Below, piece after piece: positions 54,514 to 57,433 of a stretch of DNA of 64,000 bases; the stretch's first letter is position 1; each line of letters begins with the position of its first letter. The notes under the pieces were generated by a model. The model did not search any database. It was not told the DNA's origin and saw only the letters and a program-made list of their open reading frames with translations. The translations under genes and the position numbers were made by a program. This stretch comes from Escarpia spicata. Lineage: Eukaryota > Annelida > Polychaeta > Sabellida > Siboglinidae. The stretch spans positions 22,799,421 through 22,863,420 of the forward strand of contig OZ023217.1 in the NCBI GenBank assembly GCA_963995525.1. The letters run 5' to 3'.

Positions 54514-54521
54514 GGGTCTTG
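54514..54521 (+). repeat. Merlin target site duplication, left
   Basis: GGGTCTTG, identical to 57426-57433. Confidence 0.85.
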
Positions 54522-54996
54522 GGCGATCTTTTACTTTCTGACCTAACCATGAAAAAGACCACTTACAGCCGCCAAACTTCTCAAATATCTTACTTACATA
54601 AATACACACACACTACGTTACCAAAAAAATAATTTAACATTCCTACAACGATCAAATTTCGTAAAACAAACTCAAGTAAACTCGACTTCTATGGCGGCGA
54701 CTATCCATTGCTCCACGGTTACCGTAAAATTGATATTGTGTCGAGCTTCACAGAAATTCTGTACAGTGGCGCTATCGTTACTGTATACATGTTTGCGCGC
54801 GATATAAATATAATATATACGGGCGCGTGAGTGTGCGTGTGGTAGTTATAATATTGGCATTGTTTCTGTTAAAAAGTAGCTTCATCAATTAAGGCATAAT
54901 TATTATCATCAGCATGGTTTGAAGGTAATGAAAGGTTTCTACTTAATGTCAAAAACAAAATAAGTCTTACGAATAGCCAATAATTGTGTTCCCGTG
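54522..54996 (+). repeat. Merlin left terminal inverted repeat
   Basis: Inverse of 56955-57425; matching blocks include CCTACAACGATCAAATTT, AAATTCTGTACAGTGGCGCT and CCAATAATTGTGTTCCCGTG, the last being the inner edge. Confidence 0.9.
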
Positions 54997-55562
54997 GGTC
55001 AATTCTTTTTCAGTTGATGACCAACACACGAGTCAGTGCTCCAATGAATTACACTTTTTTTTATATTCGTTTATGTGAACATTTTGTTAAATTGTGCACT
55101 TTGCTAAGCTGGGAAAGTCAGTTCCGTAATTAGTTCATGTGACAAACTGAACTAAGAAGACGCAAATCCTCATTTCCAGCTTTATTCTGTGTCACCATTA
55201 AAAGTGCAGCTTTATAACAGATTATGCACAGTTTGCTGCCACTCTGTATGTAAAAGGAAACTACTTGTGATACATCAATTGGTGGTGAACACGGCAATTT
55301 GACGTAACTGACACGAAATTACGACATGTTTAATTCAGATATGAATTTTATTGTTTAATCCATTCGTCCCACAATAAAAAACTGCATTATGTAACCATCG
55401 TAGTGAATCGCAGGTGGGCCGGTGTCGTGAGAGAATGAACAACTTTCACACAAGTTGTTTCTGGGAAGTAGTGGCCACAGTCGGAAATGTATCACTCATT
55501 CATAGACTTCTCTGTGAAAGTGCTTATATTTGCCTATGTTCCATGATCGTCAGACACAAGCA

Positions 55563-55680
55563 ATTGGAACACATTTCCTGTAGTTATTGCTAAGGCGAAA
55601 CACCAAATGATCCCAATATTGGATCTGCTTTATTGGTGAGAAGGTTGTCTTTCATTCCCATGAGCTTATTGGTATATAAA
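55563..55680 (+). promoter_or_regulatory. CCAAT cluster and TATA box of the Merlin transposase gene
   Basis: CCAAT/ATTGG pentamers lie at 55563, 55613, 55618, 55632 and 55668. GTATATAAA (55672-55680) is a TATA box 49 bp before the ATG at 55729, leaving room for a leader of only about 20-25 nt. Spacing is like that of replication-dependent histone promoters. Function is inferred. Confidence 0.55.
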
Positions 55681-55728
55681 GCGATGTTTCTGACTCTTAT
55701 TTCATATCGATTTTCGGTTCTTTTCAAG

Positions 55729-56590
55729 ATGGCCCAAGTAAATGTGAATCTGCGCGGCTTGCATTTGAGAAGTTTGGTCATCGCAATGAGATTGACCAGA
55801 AGGACAGTCACCTGGCTGCAAGTGAATCGCCTGCTTGCAGCAAACCTCAACTGTCCGACGTGGCATGTCGTTGGGAGGTGACGGCTGCGTTGGCTGATGG
55901 CTACGCATGGCACTGTCCCAACCAGGCATGCTGGAAACGCTTTTCCATATGGCATGGTAACTTTTTCGCAAAAAGCCACGTCTCGCTGCAAGATCTTGCA
56001 CAATTTATGTACTGGTGGAGCATGGACAGCGTCGGGTATCCCACCATCCAGTCCGATCTCGGGATAGCTTCAGGGAAAACGCTGGTAGACTTGTTGACAT
56101 GTGCTCAACACATCCAGATCAACCCAGTACACATCAGCGGTGGCGGCCACACAGTTGAAATCGACGGAAGCAAGTTTGGGAAAAGAAAATTCAGTCGCGT
56201 ACTTCGCATCGACGGGGTATAGGTGCTTGGTGGCATCAACAGAGGGATGTCGCAACGCTGATTCCTATAATCCAGCAGTGGGTTCTGCCTGGTATGACGA
56301 TCATAACCAACGATTGGCATGCATACGACACCTTACAGCAACTTGGGTACACCCATAAGACCATAAACCAGAGCCAGCACTACGTGGACCCCAACGATGC
56401 GACACTCCACATGAACACCATTGAGGGCGTGTGGATGCAGGTGAAAAGGAAGTTCAAGAAGATGTCAGGATCGAGGAAGAATGGGCCGCTACTTGACACT
56501 TACCTCCAAGAGTTTATTTGGCGAAGGCGCTACGGGGATGCAACATTTCACCATATCGTGAACCACGTCGCCCAACTGTACCCCGTGTAG
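55729..56590 (+). pseudogene. Merlin (ISXO2/IS1595-like) DDE transposase, intronless, broken
   Basis: ATG 55729 starts MAQVNVNLRG; a shift near 55760 moves to the main frame. The N-terminal zinc-binding part is ADGYAWHCPNQACWKRF, then SIWHGNFFAKSHVSLQDL. The catalytic triad is kept: first Asp in HTVEIDGSKFGKRK, second in TIITNDWHAYDTLQQLGY, Glu in HMNTIEGVWMQVKRKFKK. It ends FIWRRRYGDATFHHIVNHVA. Breaks: the shift near 55760, TAG at 56220-56222 exactly where the family has Trp (DGV-W-VLGGI), and a shift near 56245. The family cuts and pastes DNA flanked by GG-starting inverted repeats. The gene lies centrally in the element with histone-like signals at both ends. Confidence 0.9.
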
Positions 56591-56619
56591 AGGACGAACA
56601 GGTCGAGAACAAAAACAAT

Positions 56620-56635
56620 GGCTCTTTTAAGAGCC
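56620..56635 (+). terminator. Histone-mRNA-type 3' stem-loop after the transposase
   Basis: GGCTCTTTTAAGAGCC: 6-bp stem (GGCTCT/AGAGCC) with TTTA loop, fitting the histone consensus GGYYYTT-TNARRRCC. It is preceded by A-rich AAAAACAAT, followed by AACCAAC, and starts 30 nt after the stop codon. In histone mRNAs SLBP binds this hairpin and the RNA is cleaved about 5 nt downstream instead of being polyadenylated. Confidence 0.7.
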
Positions 56636-56650
56636 AACCAACACTTCCCC

Positions 56651-56658
56651 AAAAGAGA
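56651..56658 (+). terminator. Histone downstream element-like purine block
   Basis: AAAAGAGA, 15 nt after the stem-loop. In histone pre-mRNA a purine-rich element at this distance pairs with U7 snRNA. Confidence 0.5.
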
Positions 56659-56954
56659 TTGCTACTATGCATATATGTTGACATTGATAAGAAAAGCACT
56701 AAGATATTAATATTATTTTAGAATGCGACCAAACCGTTAAAAACTGTATATTTCTACCACCATATTTCCCATCCCATATTCACATATCGTGTAAATATCA
56801 TTTATTCATTATGCTTAACAAGTAATGAACGTCCAAAAATGTATTAATATTATTAATACATATCTGATGGTAGCATTATATTTCATTAATTAAATAATGA
56901 TTTGTATTCATTTTCTTATCAAAAGAACATATTGGTGTACGTGCACACATACAC

Positions 56955-57425
56955 ACGGGAACACAATTATTGGCTATTCGTAAGACTTATTTTGTTTTTT
57001 ACATTGAATAGAAACCTTTCATTACCTGCAAACCATATTGATGATAATAATTATGCCTTAATTAAGCTACTTTTTAACAGAAACAATGCCAATATTATAA
57101 CTAGCACACACACTCGCGCCCGTATATATTAACAATATATTATATTTATATCGCGCACGAACATGCGTACAGTAATGATAGCGCCACTGTACAGAATTTC
57201 TGTGAAGCTCGATGCAATATCAATTTTACGGTAACCACAGAGCAACGGATAGTCGCCACCGTAGAAGTCGAGTTTTACTTGAGTTTGTTTTGTGAAATTT
57301 GATCGTTGTAGGAATAAAAAATATTTGTTTGGTAACGTAGTGTGCATATATGTATGTAAGATATGTCAGGAGAAGCGGCTGTAGGTGGTCGTTTTCATGG
57401 TTAGGTCAGAAAGTAAAAGATTGCC
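56955..57425 (-). repeat. Merlin right terminal inverted repeat
   Basis: Inverse copy of 54522-54996, ending AGAAAGTAAAAGATTGCC. Confidence 0.9.
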
Positions 57426-57433
57426 GGGTCTTG
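57426..57433 (+). repeat. Merlin target site duplication, right
   Basis: GGGTCTTG, identical to 54514-54521. Confidence 0.85.

Follow-up and report, generated by a model that had tools for sequence, protein, structure and literature searches.

The window, as we call the whole 64-kb stretch of Escarpia spicata DNA analysed here, probably holds a decayed Merlin copy from one of several lineages in which the transposase gene ends, judging by its sequence, in the manner of a replication-dependent histone gene. Most likely, these Merlin genes use histone-type, poly(A)-independent 3′ ends, in which case the transposase mRNA may be tied to S phase. This interpretation had been put forward in a preliminary description of the locus, and the sequence comparisons presented below support it; SLBP binding, U7-directed cleavage, the lack of poly(A) and S-phase timing are what we infer from it by analogy.

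The Merlin element in the window

The element is a Merlin transposon, with the IS1595/ISXO2-like DDE transposase, the terminal GG and the target-site duplication that characterize this superfamily (Table 1). The preliminary description had read its transposase gene as an intact, intronless open frame. This did not hold: the match to an open relative is spread over three frames and includes a premature stop, and the window copy is therefore dead. Open transposase frames are found in three other copies of the family, with 352 codons in two of them and 350 in the third. PF12762 scored 51.4 bits on the window piece 56294-56590, 86.4 bits on L010 and 72.8 bits on lineage B (L086), and the 5′ piece of the window transposase alone gave no Pfam match. 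A TATA-like motif lies upstream of the likely start codon; its likeness to histone promoters was judged too weak, and some host histone copies are without a TATA box at a similar place.

The hairpin had been described as a perfect 6-bp stem with a 4-base loop, an A-rich flank on one side, AACCA on the other and a purine block 15 nt further on, with the stem-loop beginning 30 nt after the stop codon. All of this was confirmed except the last figure, the gap being 29 nt. A stem-loop, an ACCCA-like flank and a purine element about 15 nt past the stem are thus all present in the window, and the claim that these are the parts and spacings of a histone 3′ end agrees with the full-model match to RF00032, whose score falls within the range of the host histone genes (26.5-39.8 bits). 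The default Rfam scan of the window was silent because the hairpin, at 33.5 bits, stays below the gathering score of 34. Within the 64 kb, GGYYYTTYTHARRRCC has one exact match; with one mismatch it has three, against 0.38 expected, and one in 100 shuffles reaches three. The hairpin folds at -10.3 kcal/mol (z -4.1). By comparison with the tandem pair (30-nt repeat) found in 16 other copies, this lone hairpin looks like a fusion or collapse of the two.

Table 1. Positions of the features of the Merlin element within the window
Feature	Position	Strand	Remarks
Hairpin-bearing Merlin element	54522-57425		GGC...GCC ends; inverted repeats of ~475 bp
8-bp target-site duplication GGGTCTTG, left copy	54514-54521	.	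right copy 57426-57433
5′ terminal inverted repeat, starts GGC	54522-54999	+	~475 bp, 86.7% identical to the 3′ arm
Broken Merlin (DDE_Tnp_IS1595) transposase gene	55594-56590	+	three frames; premature stop 56220-56222, final stop 56588-56590
TATA-like TATATAAA	55673-55680	+	48 nt upstream of likely start ATG 55729; weak evidence
A-rich 5′ flank of hairpin	56608-56619	+	
RF00032 (Histone3) match	56615-56661		full model, 33.5 bits, E 1.4e-7 (covariance search, 1.2 kb)
Histone-type stem-loop GGCTCTTTTAAGAGCC (GGCTCT-TTTA-AGAGCC)	56620-56635	+	perfect 6-bp stem, 4-base loop; single
AACCA flank	56636-56640	+	predicted cleavage 5 nt past the stem, by analogy with ACCCA (PMC6303110, in part)
Purine element AAAAGAGATTGCTACT	56651-56666	+	likened to host H4 AAAAGAGAGTTGCTACT; predicted U7-binding histone downstream element
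AAAAGAG purine block	56651-56657		starts 15 nt past the stem
ATTAAA	56889
AATAAA	57313
3′ terminal inverted repeat, ends GCC	56951-57425	-	~475 bp

As stated in the preliminary description, no histone coding sequence is adjacent: tblastn with host H2A, H2B, H4 and two H3 pieces found none in the window, and the same queries gave no match at E 0.01 in Merlin loci L009-L048. The host H2A, H2B, H4 and H3 queries all matched their own array unit (L065). Since both ATTAAA and AATAAA occur in the window copy, poly(A) might be used; in L010, neither motif occurs in the 363 nt between the second hairpin and the 3′ inverted repeat.

Copies of the family

Searching the whole 1.06-Gb genome at the DNA level yielded 64 matches, which were grouped into 40 copies of the window's family. 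A perfect 8-bp target-site duplication was seen in 13 of the 18 copies with both ends found, the window copy included. The case made in the preliminary description depended on the hairpin recurring in other copies, and it does so: 20 of the 40 match the consensus (L023 among these, with one mispair), with no further consensus match anywhere in the 40 loci, and the hairpin is also found at most distant 3′ ends (see below). The other 20 copies comprise five without the 3′ end of the gene (L026, L027, L030, L031, L046), three that are damaged (L018, L025, L028) and 12 that form an internally deleted subfamily, in which GGCTCTTTTAGGAGCC or a decayed version of it is found. When this subfamily is left out of the count, 23 copies keep the 3′ end and 16 of them have tandem hairpins, laid out as GGCTCTTTTAAGAGCC, about 14 nt and then GGCTCTTTTCAGAGCC. 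AACCA and the purine element stand behind the second hairpin only, and both hairpins match the consensus in 12 of these 16 copies.

Among 14 two-hairpin copies, SL1 has diverged by 0.009 per site, where most other parts show 0.05-0.09, while SL2 (0.055) and the purine stretch (0.093) evolve no more slowly than their surroundings. Because the copies are only ~5-9% diverged in most parts and mostly decaying, conservation within the family is a weak test; it was set aside as proof, and the comparison between lineages was used instead.

The internally deleted subfamily (L033-L041, L044, L045, L047) is probably non-autonomous and multiplied with a U-G closing pair in its hairpin. Its spread with a weakened closing pair suggests that the hairpin serves the transposase mRNA and not the DNA ends. 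A long open frame adjoining one Merlin copy (L045:3-959) may encode a protein resembling the capsid-like proteins of Polinton-type elements.

Diverged Merlin lineages

When an open transposase was used as protein query, 127 matches were obtained. For 16 chosen sites that extend to the C-terminus or almost so, we read the 180 nt that follow; identity is 37-50% at 15 of these sites and 62% at L083. Hairpins are present at 14 of these 16 3′ ends, namely at 13 of the 15 sites with 37-50% identity and at L083, which is close to the window's family and has a single hairpin. They are absent at L076, where the stretch is deleted relative to its sisters, and at L085. At least one perfect 6-bp stem was found at 13 of the 14 hairpin sites, L078 having one mismatch. 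The tandem layout is present in 11 of the 14 (11 of 13 among the sites at 37-50% identity), with a mismatched first hairpin in L072, L077 and L084. Several sites are near-identical copies, so the 13 sites amount to about four independent lineages.

The preliminary description had proposed testing whether hairpin, flanks and purine block are conserved beyond the sequence around them. Between lineages this is borne out, as an AACCA-like flank and a purine block are kept together with the hairpin at 13 of the 15 sites at 37-50% identity; within the family the test has little force, and SL2 and the purine stretch do not stand out in it. Every sequence part of a histone end stands at the right spacing near the stop codon in four of five Merlin lineages, the purine element (AAGAG) starting 15-17 nt past the stem. 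Lineage B (L070, L073, L077, L080, L081, L082) has GGTTCTTTTCAGAGCC, then AGTTCTTTTCAGAGCT (in L077, AGCTCT...AGAGCT), then AAGAGTTTGCTA, with ATCCA, ACCCA or ATCTA in place of AACCA. GGCTCT...AGAGCC followed by AGTTCTCTTCAGAACT is found in lineage C (L071, L072), and GGCTCT... followed by GGTTCT... in lineage D (L074, L079, L084), where L074 has no stop codon at the expected place. Lineage E (L075, L078) has one hairpin, 115-119 nt past the stop. Counted by eye, the distance from the stop to the first hairpin is 21 nt in L070 (B), 20 nt in L071 (C) and 27 nt in L079 (D). The lineage B transposase shares 72-75% identity with that of C, 36-40% with A, 37% with D and 40-41% with E.

Similarity between lineages is 0.69-0.94 in the hairpins. 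For the 30 nt that follow the purine element, compared coarsely and without gaps, it is 0.43-0.57 between lineages A-D and 0.27-0.47 between these lineages and the host histones. The flanks of the lineages thus appear far less alike than their hairpins, yet we cannot call them entirely unrelated.

Stem pairing was assessed in an alignment of 22 Merlin ends and four host histone ends. The 22 were a selection without near-duplicate lineage B rows, further copies from the window's family or any member of the internally deleted subfamily, whose hairpins would have brought in broken stems and closing pairs of the U-G type. Paired cells make up 96.7% of the stem, against 9-49% for slid structures. 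Compensatory changes, the other expectation of the preliminary description, are seen in part: two stem pairs have changes on both sides, in 5 cells, a cell count that one of 500 shuffles reaches and a pair count that 194 of 500 reach, and the covariation signal in these sequences rests on few events.

Beyond this genome, one distant relative, at 31% identity, was found in viral_contigs; genome_contigs has three, at 31-45% identity, all of them in bacterial MAG records and none in animal DNA. Protein homologues, 120 listed of 466, come from molluscs, rotifers, sea urchins, a spider, a sponge and others.

Host histone genes

The RF00032 genome search, with the best 75 candidates scored, located about 20 dispersed sites besides two tandem arrays, both on contig C4. 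Array unit L065 contains H4 (twice), H2B, H3 and H2A, with hairpins 28-38 nt past the stop. When scored in one RF00032 search, H2B reached 39.8, H4 37.5, H3 32.3 and H2A 26.5 bits, and eight of nine Merlin copies 31.1-35.3 bits; the ninth, L024, gave no match at E 0.01. Host H4 and H2B pass the gathering threshold and host H3 and H2A fail it, as do all but three (L014, L015, L032) of 29 Merlin loci. Merlin ends therefore score like genuine histone ends, and the threshold is too strict for both.

The AACCA flank is present in all four host histone genes, as in the window. The purine element starts 14 nt past the stem in host H4 and H2B, and host H3 and H2A have other purine blocks. Host H4 ends in ...CGGCTCTTTTCAGAGCCAACCACATTTTCTCAAAAGAGAGTTGCTACT and the second Merlin hairpin, in the example of L032, in ...CGGCTCTTTTCAGAGCCAACCAACACTTCCCCAAAAGAGATTGCTACT. 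Between L010 and host H4, 16/16 hairpin bases and the next 5 are identical. No U7 snRNA was found by a genome search with RF00066, which was silent in control genomes too, or by a single pattern designed around an Sm site.

Hairpin patterns across the genome

Genome-wide, 780 matches to the hairpin pattern GGYTCTTTTHAGAGCC were counted, host histone genes included, against one match to its reversed control. The tandem pattern TTTTHAGAGCC-N5-25-RGYTCTYTTYAGARC has 57 matches (overlapping and double at two places), and its reversed control none. Assigned by coordinates against a partial Merlin list, 33 of the 57 lie 30-95 nt downstream of a Merlin transposase match on the same strand; none lies upstream or on the wrong strand of such a match within 350 nt, and none lies inside the histone arrays. 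The remaining 24 are away from any listed Merlin match. So are 62 of 70 hairpin sites on C1, the other eight (six elements) standing behind a listed match; the hairpin is therefore not special to Merlin in this genome. Comparing these tandem and C1 sites by eye with a PF12762 genome search (95 matches), we saw no added assignment. Across C1, and on C2 below 49.745 Mb, a consensus hairpin was seen by eye behind eight of 11 Merlin matches that reach the C-terminus; the three misses are C1:28197380 (GGAGCC subfamily, L035), C1:52170116 and C2:23144650. In viral_contigs the tandem pattern had no match, and a single hairpin with AMC was found in two stretches.

Two sites with overlapping tandem matches (G000:C5:60303218-60303279 and C5:62500738-62500799), with no listed Merlin near, suggest three hairpins in a row. 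Several PF12762 matches on small contigs, some with open frames (G000 C83:10924-11433, C83:55488-55910, C1067:21134-21643, C276:6121-7786), are possibly bacterial insertion sequences in contaminating or symbiont contigs.

The dispersed histone-hairpin repeats L049-L064 resemble Merlin in having a perfect or near-perfect hairpin and a purine element outside the arrays. Searched with Merlin transposases over ~1.2 kb per locus, they gave nothing better than E 0.03-0.07. H2B-like remnants occur in nine of these 16 loci (L049-L052, L055-L057, L062, L064), so decayed histone sequence explains at least part of the other hairpins. L049-L057, L060 and L064 form one dispersed repeat family (e.g. G000:C1:13897000-13898200 and C5:24601150-24602350) with hairpin and purine element and with no intact histone gene in ~1.2 kb each; three site pairs stand in inverted orientation at a chromosomal distance of 7-12 kb, and some members have antisense H2B-like remnants. 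L062 and L063 (G000:C3:4820700-4821850, C1:40796650-40797800) represent another hairpin-bearing repeat, the hairpin of L062 lying ~35 nt past a degenerate H2B C-terminus, EGTKAVTRYTSTR. In L059 and L061 (G000:C2:53418650-53419800, C6:29099300-29100450), a repeated unit has a histone hairpin directly after an apparent short exon.

Discussion

In animals, SLBP sits on the hairpin and the U7 snRNP on the purine element, and the transcript is cut ~5 nt past the stem at ACCCA (PMC6303110, in part). By the same route, SLBP would bind the nascent transposase transcript at its last hairpin and U7 snRNA would base-pair with the purine element; after a cut ~5 nt past the hairpin, the transposase mRNA would be exported from the nucleus with no poly(A) tail. 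On this view, most transposase would be produced during S phase and the mRNA would be degraded once that phase is over, which would link transposition to DNA replication. The duplicated hairpin may be a back-up site or a switch, the latter because, in lineages A and D, one hairpin can pair with the other. On balance, we lean towards regarding Merlin as a class of non-histone, protein-coding animal genes with histone-type 3′ ends, in which the tandem end was kept through deep divergence and transposition is confined to S phase, with cross-pairing perhaps acting as an RNA switch.

The strongest alternative, which we nonetheless consider unlikely, is that recombination brought a host histone 3′ end into an ancestral Merlin and that this end was then passed down in the lineages without being used. 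The extreme likeness of host and Merlin 3′ ends, best seen between L010 and H4, would be expected from such an event, and other repeats in this genome do carry histone-type hairpins, partly with H2B-like remnants. An unselected sequence, however, should not survive while the transposase drifts to 37-50% identity, nor does an unused relic account for stem changes on both sides or for a tandem layout that is shared by lineages A, B, C and D and absent from the host arrays. Capture as the origin of the end is compatible with a later function.

That the hairpins have another role, for instance as a cis-acting transposition site, as a general stop for transcription or as an RNA duplex, and came to resemble histone ends by convergence, seems quite improbable to us. 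The hairpin does lie between the coding region and the 3′ terminal inverted repeat, and in lineages A and D the tandem pair is predicted to fold, at minimum energy, into one longer, cross-paired duplex and not into two hairpins; the predicted fold of the lineage B tandem is two separate hairpins. A generic duplex, on the other hand, would have no need of the loop, the AACCA flank and AAGAG 15-17 nt on, which are the parts of a histone end, and the internally deleted subfamily multiplied while its hairpin was weakened (GGAGCC), as expected if the hairpin matters for the transposase mRNA and not in cis.

Very little weight can be given to the idea that the hairpins are decoys for SLBP and U7 that disturb histone supply and have no part in transposase expression. 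The many genome matches of the hairpin pattern, histone genes included, would suit decoys, and tandem hairpins would double the binding sites; the distance from the transposase stop in lineages A-D is short, however, as for an mRNA end, and lineage E, with its longer distance, is unlike them in this respect. A chance hairpin, conceivable while the window copy is seen alone as one match in 64 kb, is as good as impossible and is refuted by the counts (780 matches against one reversed, 57 tandem against none, 33 of 57 behind Merlin).

An exact-phrase literature search of openly licensed papers found no description of a transposon with a histone-type 3′ end, and the word 'histone' is absent from the main text of a Merlin survey (PMC8101967). 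If our reading is true, a transposon group that keeps a histone-type end would be a natural second class of such genes, a mobile element would couple to DNA replication through mRNA metabolism, and the lineages would serve as independent and fast-evolving material for testing the requirements of SLBP and U7.

How do these elements compare with known systems? Like other Merlin DNA transposons, the kin of IS1016 and IS1595, they have a PF12762 transposase, with aligned D, D and E residues in the open copy L010, as well as terminal GG, long inverted repeats and 8-bp target duplications (8-9 bp in the superfamily). Their inverted repeats, at ~475 bp, lie slightly beyond the range of 24-462 bp in the Merlin survey (PMC8101967, in part). 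With the replication-dependent histone genes of metazoans they have in common the hairpin, its loop, the AACCA flank, the purine element, the spacing and the short distance from the stop. The Merlin end is histone-type by its sequence, the processing being known from histone genes; those genes encode histones, whereas the Merlin genes described here encode a transposase and often end in two tandem hairpins.
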